Origin: a virus
DNA length: 38,672 bases
Virus record (IMG/VR): IMGVR_UViG_3300037395_000031
Location: 1 to 38,672 of that record
Strand: one strand, 5' to 3'
The translations under genes were made by a program, and so were the position numbers. Below the pieces are notes generated by a model. That model ran no database searches, was not told the origin of the DNA, and saw nothing but the letters and a program-made list of their open reading frames with translations. This document shows positions 14,856-35,436 of this stretch, one piece after another (positions within the stretch are counted from its first letter, which is position 1; each line of letters begins with the position of its first letter).

Positions 14856-15455
14856 TTATACCCCCAAGCTAAATAGACGAGTTGATAATAGATTGCGAAT
14901 AGCAGTATCCTGCGTAATCGCTTGTGCTTGAGCGAACTTAACAGCTAGTGTCGCGTTCTGAGCAAGCATGCCAGAATAGTATGGATCGCGATAAATCAAG
15001 TTCATCGAGTATCCATCTTGGTTGATGTGTGTGACAGCTTGTTTACCAACAACTGTGTTGTAATAAACGTCGCTGCCCTTTGCGCTAGTTCCACGAGCTA
15101 CTGGAGCTTCAGAACTTGTCAGAATACGAATGTTGTATACCGAGCCATATTCTGATGGTAGAGCGCTGGCATTGGTTGGATAGTTCCAGTTAGATATGAA
15201 ACCAGAACCACTTAAGCCATCGAAATCAGACTGTAGCTCAGTAGAGCTCAACATAAAGTATGCTGAACGTATTGGGCCGGTGCCGAATCGATCCATACCT
15301 TCGATACCGCTCATGAATTTATAAGCGTTATTTGTATCGAGAGTTGTAGCCACTAAGCTAAAGTCAGTGACGCCCAAGTTCGTTGGGTTATCGCCATTGC
15401 TTCCGCCACCAGCATTGATCTGCGAAGCCGCAGACACGATGTAATCTCTTAGGAT
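14856..15455 (-). CDS. Major capsid protein, exon 2 (N4-gp56 family)
   Basis: C-terminal about 199 residues of the major capsid protein. Hallmarks of the N4-gp56 family are visible: NAGGGSNGDNPTNLG, 'IEGMDRFGTGPIRSAYFMLS', YPTNASALPSEYGSV and QDGYSMNLIYRDPYYSGMLA. The reading frame has no good start of its own (a GTG at 15437 lies inside the conserved helix), which is why I treat it as an exon. The family pattern as I remember it (TEDQLTRDMLAATAS...GGTNGDNP) aligns without gaps if exon 1 ends in AEDL and exon 2 begins ILRDYIVSAAS. That puts the 3' splice site after a G at 15456. The spliced protein would be about 322 aa, a normal length for this family. Confidence 0.8.
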   Translation of the reverse strand: MLRDYIVSAASQINAGGGSNGDNPTNLGVTDFSLVATTLDTNNAYKFMSGIEGMDRFGTGPIRSAYFMLSSTELQSDFDGLSGSGFISNWNYPTNASALPSEYGSVYNIRILTSSEAPVARGTSAKGSDVYYNTVVGKQAVTHINQDGYSMNLIYRDPYYSGMLAQNATLAVKFAQAQAITQDTAIRNLLSTRLFSLGV

Positions 15456-16609
15456 CTTTTCTGTTACTTTTTGTGACCAAATTTTAATTTGGCGGAGAAA
15501 GTTCTTCGACTCTCTCTCTCGGATTTCATGTATAGTCCGAGTTCAGACTGTTGCATACGCTTTCGCGTCCATCTCGCTCAGTCGTTCACGCTGCAATTAC
15601 GCTTGCGCCTCGTCACCCCATCGGGCTTCCGAGTCAATCAGAGACGGTTTATAGATCTCACCACTATTTAACTGCTTTAATCTTTGATAGCTATTTTCTC
15701 TAAATTCAAGTTCATCAACGGGAATCCCATTTTGCTTATGATTAATACGAGTATAATTTAAGCAAAAATTTCTCAATTCTTTCGCTGATTCAACTTTAAA
15801 CTTAAGATAAGGAATGATTCTATTTATGGTATCGATGCATTCATCGATTTTCCCAATGGCCATTTTATAAACAAACCCGCGTTGAGTTGTTTTTGCTTTT
15901 GGAAAACAAACCGACCCATAACACATATTTTTTCTTATATGATTCATAGTTGGGAAACTAGCCATACACAATTGGATAACTGGATTATATTTATAAGATA
16001 TACATCCCCATGAAGGTTTATTTTTTCTTATAGAAAATGATCCTTCAGTATCCAGAATACCGGCAAAATATGACCAGAAGATCTCTGATTCTGTATTTTT
16101 TTTCGCCTGTTTCACAATTGAATCGCTATTTACAAGACATGAATTATTGAGCGATTGCATTTTCAAATGCATATTCATAGTTTCTTTGCATTCAATTATA
16201 AAATTCAATAGATGCTTGGCTTGATCTTTTTTCAATATTAAATATGGATAGAGAGAGTCAATCACTGATTTACAAGATTCTCGACCACGTACACACCATA
16301 CATATTGGATCTTCTTGCTATGACTTTGACGGCTTTTTATTTTTTTGCTTCCGCCAAAAGTGTCATGCAATAGATCGATCATGCCTTTAAATACATTGCT
16401 TAACTGAATACATGGGTAATATTTAGCGCCAGCAGCTCGATTCTCTTTGATTATCGAGATACTTCCATCGCCATCTATTAGACCCGCTATATATGCCATT
16501 AAATTTCCCTTATCTTCCATGTGAGTCTCCGTTTTATAGAGCAACTATACCACATGGTCGAATTGACTACCAAATGCTATTTTCAAGCAGCCAAAAGATA
16601 TTCTTCTTT
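15456..16609 (-). ncRNA. Group I intron in the major capsid gene
   Basis: About 1154 bp separates the two halves of the capsid coding sequence. The predicted 5' exon ends in U and the intron ends in G, as in group I introns. Core elements near the 3' end on the minus strand: ACGACUGAG (P7 5', 15579-15583 core) pairing with CAGUC (15546-15550); a P8 hairpin ACGC-GAAA-GCGU (15557-15568); a 6-bp P9 hairpin CUCGGA/UCCGAG (15518-15541); and a further hairpin CCAAAU-UAAA-AUUUGG (15477-15492). The 5' part (16521-16609) can form a P1-like pairing around GCCGAAGAU...AUCUU but I could not confirm the U.G wobble. The intron carries a LAGLIDADG endonuclease gene. Boundaries rest on protein alignment from memory. 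Confidence 0.75.
15597..16520 (-). CDS. LAGLIDADG homing endonuclease, intron-encoded
   Basis: A 307-residue protein with two LAGLIDADG motifs: YIAGLIDGDG (residues 10-19) and YFAGILDTEG (151-160). The acidic catalytic positions are D18 and E159. Spacing and length fit a single-chain, two-domain endonuclease acting as a monomer on a long asymmetric site. Substrate-binding beta strands follow each motif (for example YYPCIQLSNV; NPVIQLCMAS). It should cut intronless copies of the capsid gene and so spread the intron. The ATG at 16520 has GGAGA 8 nt upstream; the alternative upstream ATG adds 8 residues without a better site. Its A-rich codon use differs from the flanking virion genes, in line with an independent origin. 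Its last codons run close to the P7 core. Confidence 0.88.
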   Translation of the reverse strand: MEDKGNLMAYIAGLIDGDGSISIIKENRAAGAKYYPCIQLSNVFKGMIDLLHDTFGGSKKIKSRQSHSKKIQYVWCVRGRESCKSVIDSLYPYLILKKDQAKHLLNFIIECKETMNMHLKMQSLNNSCLVNSDSIVKQAKKNTESEIFWSYFAGILDTEGSFSIRKNKPSWGCISYKYNPVIQLCMASFPTMNHIRKNMCYGSVCFPKAKTTQRGFVYKMAIGKIDECIDTINRIIPYLKFKVESAKELRNFCLNYTRINHKQNGIPVDELEFRENSYQRLKQLNSGEIYKPSLIDSEARWGDEAQA

Positions 16610-16978
16610 AAGATCTTCGGCTTGACGCATAGCTACTGCTAAACGCTCTGATACCCACGCCAAAACACCTTCTTGATCTTGAATTATCACCTGTTCATTG
16701 ATGATGCATCCAGTACCGAAGAACGCCATTTGTGCGTCTATGATATCTCGTTGTGGAATCTGAGCTGGGGGATCAATCCCCGAGTTACCCAACTGTACGG
16801 TGGGCGGTGTTAATGCGCGCGGGCGCATAAATCTGCAAGTCGTACCGCCATTGGCTGGCATACTGACTTTGTCGCAGATAGTAATGTAATTCATTGTGGG
16901 AGTTGGAACGTAGAGCATCGCAGGCGCGAGAGACTGCAAGATCAACGGCCCCAAATTCCCAGTGGTCGTAATAGACAT
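16610..16978 (-). CDS. Major capsid protein, exon 1 (N4-gp56 family)
   Basis: N-terminal 123 residues of the major capsid protein. Family features include the helix LGPLILQSLAPAMLYVPTP, 'VSMPANGGTTCRFMRPRALT' (compare the usual IPANGGTT.R.RR), VQLGNSGIDPPAQ, 'FFGTGCIINEQVIIQDQE' and the helix RLAVAMRQAEDL. The unspliced frame runs on for nine codons (KEEYLLAA, stop at 16583) that do not fit the family, so the transcript must be spliced to give a capsid protein. The ATG at 16978 has AAAGG 6 nt upstream. An ATG at 16999 is possible but less well placed. The leader upstream is highly structured. Confidence 0.8.
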
Positions 16979-16984
16979 AGTAAA

Positions 16985-17104
16985 CCTTTTACTTGTCATT
17001 TCTTACGATATGATGATCGGTAGACGAGCCTACTTACGTCAGTTCTCGATCATATCTGGCTTGGGGAGCGAGTCCCAATTACGCGGAAGCCATTACGTGG
17101 CTAG
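16985..17104 (-). promoter_or_regulatory. Structured leader (5' UTR) of the capsid gene
   Basis: Four inverted repeats lie in about 100 bases ahead of the capsid start: AGCCA-ttacg-TGGCT (17088-17102); TTGGG...CCCAA (17061-17078); a long stem between CGATCATATC (17047-17056) and GATATGATGATCG (17007-17019); and, in its loop, GTAG-acgagc-CTAC (17020-17033). Together they form a compact folded leader on the capsid mRNA. It could protect the mRNA or control translation. I recognise no known riboswitch. Confidence 0.5.
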
Positions 17105-17558: not shown

Positions 17559-17726
17559 TTACTTTGCTTTATGATGCATTTTGTGATGCTTAGAATGCTC
17601 TTCATGGTGTTTAGCCATGGGGGCTTTCGCCATTTTGTGCTTAAGAGCCATTTTCTTCGGCGCTTTTTCTTCTTTGTGCTTTACGTGAGCTTCTGGTTCG
17701 CGTTTAGCCATTGGTGTTTTTGCCAT
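17559..17726 (-). CDS. Lys/His-rich basic peptide, 55 aa
   Basis: A 55-residue, strongly basic protein made of Lys, His, Ala and Met (MAKTPMAKREPEAHVKHK..., ending in a His/Lys run). MAKTPMAK and KMAKAPMAK are near repeats. This composition resembles histone-H1-like tails, so DNA or RNA binding in or around the head is possible. The start at 17726 has GGGA before it; an in-frame upstream ATG would add 13 residues. The 12-mer TTACTATACAAA, also found before the fibre gene, lies about 23 bp upstream and may belong to its promoter. Confidence 0.5.
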   Translation of the reverse strand: MAKTPMAKREPEAHVKHKEEKAPKKMALKHKMAKAPMAKHHEEHSKHHKMHHKAK

Positions 17727-17774
17727 TTTTATCCCGGCGGTTGAGTTTTTTGTATAGTAATTCAAATCTTTTTT

Positions 17775-31483: not shown

Positions 31484-31666
31484 CTACTTGTGGAGCTTCT
31501 TCAGCGTTTCGGCTAAATTCGCTTGCTTGCGTGTCTTGGGGTTCTTTGAGTGCTCGGCCGCTTTTAATTTTGCCGCGGGGATCTTTTCGCCGGGCTTTGC
31601 TTTTAGCTTTTTTCGTAGAGCGCCGGGGTGCTGCACTGCTTTTTGAATCCATTTGTCGTTTGCCAT
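31484..31666 (-). CDS. Conserved basic phage protein, 60 aa
   Basis: A 60-residue basic protein with WIQKAVQHPGALRKKLKAKP, GEKIPAAKLKAAEHSKNPKT and an end RKQANLAETLKKL. The 'W.QKA..HPGALR..L..K.G..I...KL..A..S.NP..RK.A.LA.TLKK' signature is common in phages and not assigned a function. I chose the ATG at 31666; AAAGAGAAAAAG precedes it. It probably binds nucleic acid. Confidence 0.75.
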   Translation of the reverse strand: MANDKWIQKAVQHPGALRKKLKAKPGEKIPAAKLKAAEHSKNPKTRKQANLAETLKKLHK

Positions 31667-31758
31667 CTTTTTCTCTTTGTCGTAAATCACTGAATATGTA
31701 TAATAATCAGCGTTCTACATTTAAAATTTGCTTAGCGCTTGATTGCGCAACTGTTCGT

Positions 31759-31780
31759 GCCCCCGGAAGGGGGCTTTTTT
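31759..31780 (+). terminator. Plus-oriented intrinsic terminator
   Basis: GCCCCC (31759-31764), GGAA loop, GGGGGC (31769-31774), then six T on the plus strand. On the minus strand, where the genes lie, the hairpin follows the stop of the Lys-rich 42-aa gene but has no T-run after it. So it would act best on a plus-strand transcript; on the minus strand it may only stabilise the mRNA end. Confidence 0.6.
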
Positions 31781-32657: not shown

Positions 32658-32816
32658 TTATTTTTTCTTTTTTTTGGCTTCGCTTAAAGCAATAGCAACA
32701 GCTTGCTTTTGGTTATCAACAAGGGGGCCGCTCTTGGTTCCAGAATGCAGTTTTTGTTCTGAAAATTCTTTCATCACTTTTTTTATTTTTTTCTTCTTCT
32801 TCCCGTCTTTGGTCAT
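32658..32816 (-). CDS. DUF6496-type small protein, 52 aa
   Basis: A 52-residue basic protein: MTKDGKKKKKIKKVMKEFSE, then KLHSGTKSGPLVDNQKQAVA, IALSEAKKKKK. The motif 'KVM.EF....LHSG.K.GP.V....QA.AIALSEA' is the DUF6496 signature found in many phages, with no established role. Nucleic-acid binding is plausible from the charge. It lies in a different frame from the last 34 codons of the upstream gene. Confidence 0.8.
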   Translation of the reverse strand: MTKDGKKKKKIKKVMKEFSEQKLHSGTKSGPLVDNQKQAVAIALSEAKKKKK

Positions 32817-33402: not shown

Positions 33403-33780
33403 TCAACGATCGTTATTATTGGCTACATGGAGTCTGTCTAACATCAGATGTTCAATTGTGGGGCAATTAAACGATGTTCCATAATCATTCAATTCTCTGG
33501 TATCATTTCCAAGTCGATAAATCCCCCAAACTGCATTAGAAATTATGTGTCGCGCTGAAGCGTTGTCGTTTCTAAAGAATGAAAATAATTTATGATCATC
33601 TTCAAGATCCAACACGCAATGTATTTCTTCTTCAGATTTCAAAATAAAAATACAATAATCGATTGCCATTGGAAATTGAGAGACATTTCTTTTACAAATG
33701 ATCTCTGCGATCTCACTAATCGGAATAATTTTTTGATAGAGAACTTCTTCTTTTTCGCAGATAAAATGGATAAATTTCAT
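33403..33780 (-). CDS. Hypothetical protein, 125 aa
   Basis: A 125-residue acidic protein (MKFIHFICEKEEVLYQKIIP..., then FPMAIDYCIFILKSEEEIHC, LFSFFRNDNASARHII). It looks mixed alpha/beta and soluble. The start overlaps the stop of the replication initiator by 4 bp, so the two are coupled. I do not recognise the family; a replication accessory role is a guess from position. Confidence 0.55.
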   Translation of the reverse strand: MKFIHFICEKEEVLYQKIIPISEIAEIICKRNVSQFPMAIDYCIFILKSEEEIHCVLDLEDDHKLFSFFRNDNASARHIISNAVWGIYRLGNDTRELNDYGTSFNCPTIEHLMLDRLHVANNNDR

Positions 33781-34733
33781 ATGTTAATCTCTAATTTTCT
33801 AATGTTTAATTGTTGTTTACACTTATCAATAAAATCTTTGCTGCCGAAAAGCAAGTGAGCTACTTGCGGACCATTGACAAACTCTATGTAATTGTAGCCA
33901 AAGACTATATCGCTACGTTTTCCAAACTTCTCTTGAATTTTCTTAGCTATCTCATCGTGAGTATCCGATGAAATGACAGTTTTGGGCTTCTGGGGATTCA
34001 ATTGATCTTCGAGATACCACTTACGAATGATTGCCGCATAGTCTTTGTATGGGCCATTTTTGCTATTGGGAATGTGATTATTAATCTTAGCGATATAGAC
34101 ATCTACGCGCTCTTTGCCGAGAGTTTCGCAAAGCTCATCATATTCTCCAGCTTTGAGTTTGACGAACTGGCCATGAGACGTTGGCGGGGGTTCTGGTTCT
34201 TTGGCCGGTGGCGAATGATCGGGCGCGCGCGCTCTCTCTCTCTCTTCTTTTTTTATAACTTCTTCTTTACTTAACTTATCATTATAAGATGGGGTCTGTA
34301 GACCCCGCGGATCGGGTCTGGGGACCGCGCCGATCGGGTCTGCAGACCTCATCGCAAACATTTTTTGAGAATCGAGCCATTCTTCATTGGATAATGCATA
34401 CCAACTTGTATGATCAAATTTATTGTTAGAGTAGTTCCCTTTGACAATGTAACCATGCTTAACCAGAAGAGCTAATCCGTCTTTTATTTGCTGTTCTGTT
34501 AGATATTTCATATATTTTGCCATGCTCGGAATGGATTCATACATCCATGTACGGCCATCATGTTGAGTATCTTTATGGATTTTGTTGTACTGTATCCAGA
34601 AAAGAAGATGCTGGAAGACAGTTGCCGCTATGATGCTTTTGGTAGACACCGCAATTCCTTCATTGAAAGAATGAGTGCCGACAGAAAAGAATGGGTTGCT
34701 AAAATTAGCGGGGGCTGATATGTTGTTTGACAT
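33777..34733 (-). CDS. Replication initiator-like protein with internal iterons
   Basis: A 318-residue protein. Residues 30-118 form a winged-helix domain (SIIAATVFQHLLFWIQYNKI; SIPSMAKYMKYLTEQQIKDG; LALLVKHGYIVKGNY), as in phage replication O / DnaD-type initiators. Residues 125-190 are a Pro/Arg/charged linker. Residues 192-250 are helical (LKAGEYDELCETLGKERVDV; KDYAAIIRKWYLED), like the C-terminal part of DnaD-like phage proteins. The linker's DNA carries three 22-bp direct repeats next to an AT-rich tract, as lambda O carries its origin. The ATG at 34733 has AAGGA close upstream; the longer start is weaker. It probably binds the iterons and loads the host helicase. No phage polymerase or helicase is visible, which fits. 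Confidence 0.7.
   Translation of the reverse strand: MSNNISAPANFSNPFFSVGTHSFNEGIAVSTKSIIAATVFQHLLFWIQYNKIHKDTQHDGRTWMYESIPSMAKYMKYLTEQQIKDGLALLVKHGYIVKGNYSNNKFDHTSWYALSNEEWLDSQKMFAMRSADPIGAVPRPDPRGLQTPSYNDKLSKEEVIKKEERERARAPDHSPPAKEPEPPPTSHGQFVKLKAGEYDELCETLGKERVDVYIAKINNHIPNSKNGPYKDYAAIIRKWYLEDQLNPQKPKTVISSDTHDEIAKKIQEKFGKRSDIVFGYNYIEFVNGPQVAHLLFGSKDFIDKCKQQLNIRKLEINI
34247..34353. other. Candidate replication origin: three 22-bp iterons plus AT-rich tract
   Basis: Three direct repeats abut exactly: 34288-34309, 34310-34331 and 34332-34353. Their shared core is GAT.GGGTCTGNNGACC; copies 1 and 3 contain the perfect dyad GGTCT-NN-AGACC. The period of 22 is not a multiple of three, so each copy is read in a different frame of the host gene. 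The repeat is therefore kept as DNA, not as protein. Immediately left lies an AT-rich tract (34247-34288) and then CT and GC dinucleotide runs (34221-34246). This is the layout of iteron origins with an unwinding element. Confidence 0.75.
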
Positions 34734-34755
34734 ATAGTTCCTTGTGTTAGATTGA

Positions 34756-34787
34756 CCCACAGCTAGTCATATGGCTGTGGGTTTTTT
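34756..34787 (+). terminator. Plus-oriented intrinsic terminator
   Basis: CCCACAGC (34756-34763), a 10-nt loop, GCTGTGGG (34774-34781), then six T on the plus strand. On the minus strand the same hairpin lies just upstream of the replication initiator start, without a T-run. It would stop plus-strand transcripts from entering the candidate RNA gene that starts at about 34825. Confidence 0.6.
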
Positions 34788-34897
34788 GTTGCATTAAATT
34801 CTTCGTTCTTTGTATGATGACTACGCAAAAACAAACGCTCGGTTTTCTTTCTTGAGAATCGATCAAATAAAATGGGGGGTGGGACTCTATCTTCCAT
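34763..34897 (-). CDS. Possible small protein, 44 aa
   Basis: A 44-residue basic ORF (MEDRVPPPILFDRFSRKKTE, then LFLRSHHTKNEEFNATKNPQ). AAGGAG lies 10 nt before its ATG and its stop is inside the hairpin at 34756-34787, 30 bp ahead of the replication initiator. It could be a leader peptide for the initiator. The same DNA is the antisense of the plus-strand RNA candidate, so only one of the two may be functional. Confidence 0.4.
   Translation of the reverse strand: MEDRVPPPILFDRFSRKKTERLFLRSHHTKNEEFNATKNPQPYD
34789..34818 (+). promoter_or_regulatory. Candidate promoter for plus-strand RNA
   Basis: TTGCAT (34789-34794), an 18-bp spacer ending in TTTG, and TATGAT (34813-34818). It starts two bases after the T-run of one terminator and about 150 bp before another, giving a complete small transcription unit. 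Confidence 0.4.
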
Positions 34898-34992
34898 TTC
34901 TTAGTCGCTCCTTGCGACACTTGTTCTTGTTACTCGGTGGGGACCGAGTACTTGTTTTGGTTGAGCTCCCGCATCACTGCGGGGGCTTTTTT
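34825..34992 (+). ncRNA. Candidate structured small RNA
   Basis: A predicted plus-strand transcript of about 168 nt between the promoter at 34789-34818 and the terminator at 34965-34992. It folds into three consecutive hairpins: GTCGC-tcctt-GCGAC (34904-34918), TACTCGGT-gggg-ACCGAGTA (34931-34950) and the GCTCCCGCA/TGCGGGGGC terminator followed by six T. It lies antisense to the leader of the replication initiator and beside the XRE regulator gene. Lambda's OOP antisense RNA sits in a comparable place next to gene O. No Rfam-type family recognised; expression is not shown. Confidence 0.45.
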
Positions 34993-35047
34993 CTTTCAGC
35001 AATTTGAACTTTCCGGGAATTGTTTACTAGTTAAAACTTTTTTATGA
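34898..35047 (-). promoter_or_regulatory. Spacer between XRE gene and initiator leader
   Basis: This 150-bp stretch is the minus-strand upstream region of the 44-aa ORF and the initiator. It holds the ribosome site AAGGAG and the hairpins listed under the plus-strand RNA. Near the XRE stop it is AT-rich (GTTTTAACTAGTAAAC, a near-palindrome). I see no clear minus-strand -10/-35 pair, so the initiator may be read through from the XRE transcript. Confidence 0.3.
34965..34992 (+). terminator. Plus-oriented intrinsic terminator
   Basis: GCTCCCGCA (34965-34973), TCAC loop, TGCGGGGGC (34978-34986) with one T.G pair, then six T. It is the strongest of the three hairpins here and would end the plus-strand small RNA. 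Confidence 0.7.
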
Positions 35048-35359
35048 TTAAGCGCTTCTTTGAATAGAATCTTCTTCTACATTAAGTTCTGTTAAAGAAA
35101 CAAAGCATCCAAAACTACTTCTCTTCATAGACACCATCAAAGTTGGCGTATCTTCGAAATGCTCAGAAAGCAGCGCATACAAGTCTATATAGCCGCGAGT
35201 CAAGTGCACAAGTTTATCCCAATACTTTGGGGGAAAATGCTTGTCGCTCCTCAGAAGCTGTGTTAGAAATGGGCGGCTGATTCCAAGCTTGCTCGCGAAC
35301 CAAGTTTTCTCTACCCCGTTTTCTTTCAGATATTGACGTAATTTTTCGCCGATTGTCAT
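35048..35359 (-). CDS. XRE-family (Cro/CI-like) regulator
   Basis: A 103-residue protein. Residues 1-55 are an XRE helix-turn-helix (MTIGEKLRQYLKENGVEKTW, FASKLGISRPFLTQLLRSDK) with the recognition helix at about 28-37. The remainder (YWDKLVHLTRGYIDLYALLS, then SMKRSSFGCFVSLTELNVEE) has no peptidase motif, so it is not a self-cleaving CI. GGAAAG lies 6 nt before the ATG. It sits at the switch between the leftward replication block and the rightward recombination operon and probably controls both. Confidence 0.75.
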   Translation of the reverse strand: MTIGEKLRQYLKENGVEKTWFASKLGISRPFLTQLLRSDKHFPPKYWDKLVHLTRGYIDLYALLSEHFEDTPTLMVSMKRSSFGCFVSLTELNVEEDSIQRSA

Positions 35360-35436
35360 TTTTGTCTTTCCATTAATTTAAGCTCTTGGTAAATTACTAT
35401 CATAGCACAGAAACATCTAAAAAATAAAGAGCGAAT
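35360..35436. promoter_or_regulatory. Divergent control region with dyad operator candidate
   Basis: Between the XRE gene and the recombination operon lies the dyad TAATTT (35374-35379), 11 bp, AAATTA (35391-35396). It is followed by TATCAT, a possible -10 for the rightward operon, and on the other strand by sequences suitable for the XRE promoter. The dyad is a plausible binding site for the XRE dimer. Confidence 0.45.

Follow-up and report, generated by a model that had tools for sequence, protein, structure and literature searches.

Genomic setting of the XRE-initiator gap

The window analyzed here is the whole of the phage record IMGVR_UViG_3300037395_000031 (38,672 nt), for which all cultured relatives are distant: the closest portal protein match, to Vibrio phage VvAW1, had 22.8% identity at best. 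An XRE-type regulator gene in a Cro/Cop-like position is followed on the minus strand by a replication initiator gene, and the gap between them contains two intrinsic terminators and promoter-like sites on the plus strand (Table 1). A profile search found relatives of the XRE protein in 35 of 48 related records. The initiator gene carries iterons, and at the equivalent position L118 and L119 had repeats spaced by 23 bp. The exonuclease and Erf genes that lie farther to the right share the strand of the antisense unit, so the preliminary description of a unit opposite to the genes around it holds for the XRE and initiator genes and not for these.

On the operon strand, the probable XRE-initiator promoter scored 8.8, and no candidate within the gap of the window scored >4.4, so transcription of the initiator probably starts at the XRE promoter. 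Several relatives had operon-strand promoter-like sites in the gap with scores up to 9.0, which makes separate initiator transcription possible there.

Table 1 Coordinates of genes, signals, and predicted RNAs in and around the XRE-initiator gap of the window
Feature	Position	Strand	Details
Replication initiator gene	33777–34733	-	PHROG 11233 replication initiation protein, E 7.6e-23
Three 22-bp iterons inside initiator gene	34288–34353	-	Probable origin, as in lambda O
P_A, predicted RNA-A promoter	34696–34724	+	TTGCTA (34696–34701), 17 nt, TG-extended TATGTT (34719–34724)
RNA-A, predicted antisense RNA, ~57 nt	~34731–34787	+	Predicted from P_A and TERM1
TERM1, intrinsic terminator	34754–34787	+	12-bp stem, 6-nt loop, T run
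P_B, predicted RNA-B promoter, sigma70-type	34789–34818	+	TTGCAT (34789–34794), 18 nt, TATGAT (34813–34818)
RNA-B, predicted structured RNA, ~170 nt	~34825–34992	+	Fold; P_B; TERM2
Outer stem of RNA-B, 7 bp	34828–34834/34952–34958	+	Minimum-free-energy and centroid fold
Four hairpins in outer stem	34839–34862, 34870–34899, 34904–34918, 34931–34950	+	Minimum-free-energy and centroid fold
TERM2, intrinsic terminator of predicted RNA-B	34963–34993	+	11-bp stem
XRE-type regulator gene, Cro/Cop-like position	35048–35359	-	Weak HTH matches
Probable XRE-initiator operon promoter	35399–35428	-	TTTATT, 18 nt, TATGAT

Elsewhere in the window, a strong plus-strand terminator (31759-31774) lies inside a block of minus-strand genes, so further antisense transcription is possible in that block. 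The minus strand also had short, very lysine-rich frames at 31484-31690, 32658-32816, and 17559-17765. A coat-like gene (14856-16999, minus strand) is apparently split into frames 16583-16999 and 14856-15437, with a LAGLIDADG endonuclease frame between them (15597-16544; PF00961, E 1.9e-10). The arrangement resembles an intron with a homing endonuclease; a search for a group I or II intron there gave no Rfam match at E up to 1. Proteins related to the portal protein occurred in three metagenome-assembled bacterial genomes (L165, L166, and L167) labeled as two Bacteroidota and one Peregrinibacteria, labels in which binning errors are likely.

Relatives of the XRE-initiator region

Relatives were gathered through terminase, portal, and exonuclease searches, and their XRE and initiator genes were then located. 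Searches of IMG/VR with the XRE and initiator proteins as queries returned no matches, and the XRE-initiator region had no DNA-level match among 50,697 phage records, annotated phages included. Six relatives had a similar XRE gene (L118/L008, L119/L026, L120, L123/L164, L161, and L162), and in their gaps the opposite strand carried the same order of terminator, promoter, RNA, and terminator, with the promoter unclear in L162. The initiator families varied among these members, and the ORFs following the XRE gene in L120 and L123 were missed by the initiator profile. Since the initiator family differs between members, the antisense unit travels with the XRE gene and not with any one initiator family. 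The cultured phages BcepMigl, elemoE, and a Vibrio phage, which carry a similar initiator, had no annotated regulator gene where XRE would lie; the initiator gene of BcepMigl and that of elemoE directly abut the gene before them.

Pattern searches were also made for the unit itself. A core-hairpin pattern gave one match, which fell within the coding region of an unrelated phage gene and was discarded as chance. Scanning for the promoter pattern with the correct spacing recovered three known relatives plus chance matches only, and the wrong spacing gave nothing useful.

Terminators and promoters

Terminators. Both plus-strand terminators that the preliminary description placed around the unit are present, and they account for two of the six strong terminators found when both strands of the 38.7-kb window were scanned. 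TERM1 has counterparts in six relatives, those in L118 and L119 falling under the strict threshold, and six relatives also have a TERM2 counterpart, 44–118 nt 3' of the XRE stop codon. Across 33 phage loci, the 900 nt downstream of XRE contained 26 strong terminators on the opposite strand vs 1 on the operon strand; the background, from 66 related loci, was 0.030 strong terminators per kb-strand. In each of the seven XRE-initiator gaps, the one to three strong terminators present were all on the RNA strand. Given the 26 vs 1 terminators and the same order of elements in six relatives, the opposite-strand terminator and promoter layout is beyond chance.

Promoter P_B. The TTGCAT-18-TATGAT promoter proposed earlier is found directly after TERM1. 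Its own score in the window is unremarkable (p about 0.09, from one sequence), yet its position is conserved in relatives. In L118, L119, and L120, the P_B blocks form an ungapped alignment of TTG, 17 nt, an extended -10 TGACATAnT, 5 nt, and TAGTTTGACAAA; L123, L161, and the window have a weaker register. When promoter scores were tiled around the first terminator in the seven phages, two local peaks emerged over a level of 5–7 in most other tiles: one 52–118 nt after the terminator (mean 8.62), matching P_B, and one 14–80 nt before it (mean 9.39), matching P_A. A further raised tile at 646–712 nt after the terminator (7.78) lies past the XRE gene and coincides with the start of the rightward exonuclease genes in most members.

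Promoter P_A. P_A falls within the opening codons of the initiator gene and has the top promoter-like score of the stretch (10.3). The corresponding peak exceeded dinucleotide shuffles (6.21, p<2e-4, a value weakened because the range was fixed after first inspection) and the opposite strand (3.83). P_A scores were modest in L120, L123, and L161. Because a promoter signal is found just before TERM1 in seven phages, this terminator most likely ends a separate short RNA, RNA-A, whose 5' end would cover the initiator start codon. TERM1 had been described as the upstream boundary of the unit; as the probable end of RNA-A it would be more than that.

Predicted RNAs

RNA-A. The predicted RNA-A consists of a 5' tail of ~23 nt over the start codon and ribosome-binding site of the initiator gene, followed by the TERM1 hairpin.

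RNA-B. The RNA at 34826-34994 folds strongly (-68.5 kcal/mol, z = -7.95), with 0 of 200 shuffles equally stable, and its complement folds more weakly (-46.9, z -4.42). A structured RNA had been proposed here with three hairpins; the structure stands and the count was too low, as the fold comprises four hairpins enclosed by an outer stem and then the terminator hairpin. RNA-B does not overlap the initiator ribosome-binding site, so that in cis its target would be the intercistronic stretch only, and in the window ~57 nt would separate its end from the XRE stop codon.

In five phages the predicted RNA-B length was 173–214 nt. The relatives share a conserved 5' start, AGUUUGACAAAA, beyond which the bodies diverge completely and no part could be aligned between phages; a five-sequence alignment gave support mainly for the terminator. 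Six of the seven phages had an unusually long hairpin before the terminator (combined p 6e-6). The RNA strand of the region folded no better than the mRNA strand in relatives. The structure of RNA-B may be under selection. Rfam 15 yielded no family at gathering score in the window and eight related loci, the best sub-threshold matches being far below.

In three relatives, the RNA-B stretch had short tandem direct repeats that differ in each phage: L119:1240-1310 (+), 26–27 nt; L118:1280-1315 (+), about 19 nt; and L162:2805-2850 (+), about 15 nt. For a possible repeat-mimic (anti-CRISPR RNA) or tracrRNA-like role of the RNA, no Cas context was seen.

Comparison with known antisense systems

Bacteriophage lambda. 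As a control, the same promoter and terminator scan was applied to lambda 37.9–39.7 kb. The best minus-strand promoter was CATAAT at 38688 and the only minus-strand terminator was at 38629-38602; we take these to be the promoter pO and the terminator tO that bound OOP. The geometry of OOP is that of RNA-A: a promoter on the opposite strand, where the initiator gene begins, is followed by an intrinsic terminator, giving an antisense RNA directed away from the initiator gene O within a regulator-initiator operon. Lambda O also has origin iterons annotated inside it, at the place corresponding to the iterons of the window. OOP is a single 77-nt RNA overlapping the 3' end of cII; RNase III-dependent decay of its target mRNA and an effect on phage development also characterize it. 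OOP targets cII (PMC12197685), whereas RNA-A and RNA-B both fall short of the XRE coding sequence. In addition, RNA-A would lie over the initiator start and be followed by a second structured RNA that has no lambda counterpart.

The parallel with OOP drawn in the preliminary description was supported in placement and probably attached to the wrong RNA. The closest counterpart is the predicted RNA-A, whose geometry fits better, and we rejected RNA-B as the exact OOP counterpart. With no overlap of the upstream gene and as the second of two units, RNA-B does not belong to the OOP kind in the way first described. The broader claim of a compact RNA gene on the opposite strand, next to an XRE regulator and an initiator, was supported by the conserved layout, the rejection of the ORF alternative (below), and the positive lambda control.

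Plasmid pMV158. RNAII of pMV158 is a 48-nt RNA from the copG-repB gap with a 17-nt tail and a terminator hairpin with a 6-nt loop; it blocks repB translation, and CopG represses transcription (PMC4485353). The predicted RNA-A is likewise a counter-transcript within a repressor-initiator gap, with a tail (~23 nt in an RNA of ~57 nt) and a terminator hairpin with a 6-nt loop. The positions differ: RNAII is located immediately 5' of the signals for repB initiation, whereas RNA-A would lie over the start codon itself. pMV158 also differs in being a rolling-circle plasmid with unrelated proteins and no second RNA; in place of CopG/RepB-type partners, the window has an XRE-like protein and a PHROG 11233-type initiator.

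Bacillus subtilis ArrA. ArrA is an antisense RNA over the untranslated leader of dnaA, likewise a replication-initiator gene, and lowers dnaA expression (PMC12112137). It differs in being a chromosomal, single RNA whose production is inhibited by DnaA.

Judged by its anatomy, the whole unit would function as OOP or RNAII does, with a predicted structured RNA in addition.

Proposed control of the initiator and alternative explanations

We favor, as reasonably probable on the arrangement of these sequence elements, a tandem antisense brake that would act both on expression of the initiator and on transcription of the origin. On the opposite strand, the XRE-initiator intergenic region would hold a control unit made of two antisense parts. 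The sequences show the elements themselves, their conservation by strand, and the lack of a conserved ORF; from these we infer transcription of both RNAs, their pairing, and the direction of the effect on the initiator. P_A would produce RNA-A, ending at TERM1 and complementary to the start codon and ribosome-binding site of the initiator gene, and P_B would produce RNA-B, ending at TERM2 and complementary to the remaining intercistronic mRNA. In the window, transcription from the XRE promoter would pass both antisense units to yield the initiator mRNA. RNA-A pairing with the leader would probably lower initiator translation, and RNA-B together with convergent transcription from P_A and P_B would probably reduce operon transcription into the initiator gene and its internal origin. 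The XRE protein may thus act as a transcriptional brake and the RNAs as a second one, comparable to CopG and RNAII in pMV158.

Two live alternatives, pure transcriptional interference and an RNA-B acting in trans, partly overlap with the tandem antisense brake. Under the first, which we consider unlikely, P_A and P_B merely oppose the operon, TERM1 and TERM2 stop their transcripts, and the RNAs have no function. Lambda pO works partly by this mechanism, damping pR transcription; efficient replication requires it, and OOP leaves O-P mRNA stability unchanged (PMC3985674). Conservation of the promoters and terminators and not of the RNA bodies also fits interference. However, the strand-biased, strong RNA-B fold of the window and the long pre-terminator hairpin of six among the seven phages suggest that the RNA is under some selection.

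Under the second, to which we give a rather small chance, RNA-B would act in trans on host or other phage mRNAs, or as a decoy for a host protein, and its proximity to the initiator would reflect timing only. Its own promoter and terminator, its compact multi-hairpin fold, and the conserved 5' sequence in relatives are consistent with this, as are the lack of overlap with coding sequence and the retention of the unit while initiator families change. However, past the 5' start region we found no conserved unpaired seed, and the bodies are fully divergent.

It is very improbable that TERM1 and TERM2 serve only to insulate against plus-strand read-through, with no dedicated RNA; the other plus-strand terminator within the minus-strand block (31759-31774) would fit such a role, but insulation leaves unexplained both the two promoter peaks fixed relative to TERM1 and the fold between the terminators. 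A small minus-strand protein of 44 or 57 aa, with the hairpins incidental, has next to no chance and was rejected: open frames are present in the window and the L118, L119, and L120 frames share a CQT...MS stretch opposite the promoter, but the 44-, 57-, and 65-aa frames had no homologue in about 167 loci, no ribosome-binding site was apparent before such frames, and the common peptide is the promoter read backwards. Differences among the L118, L119, and L120 frames were about equal across codon positions (14/21/18, 15/19/17, and 15/21/16), with no third-position excess, so the peptide likeness is due to P_B. The 44-aa frame in particular, whose preservation in relatives had been put forward as a refutation of an RNA gene, is not conserved.

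Implications

The tandem antisense brake would extend antisense control of replication initiators, known from lambda and some plasmids, to an uncultured phage group. More tentatively, and with some doubt on our part, the unit may be a family-wide, two-RNA replication-control cassette in which an OOP- or RNAII-like RNA-A precedes an independent RNA-B of an undescribed kind of phage RNA, the whole moving with the XRE gene while unrelated initiator families swap. The comparison of relatives suggests that a control cassette has apparently been kept while the initiator protein was exchanged. The signature of an opposite-strand promoter and terminator before an initiator gene also finds lambda OOP, and can be scanned for across viral genomes.
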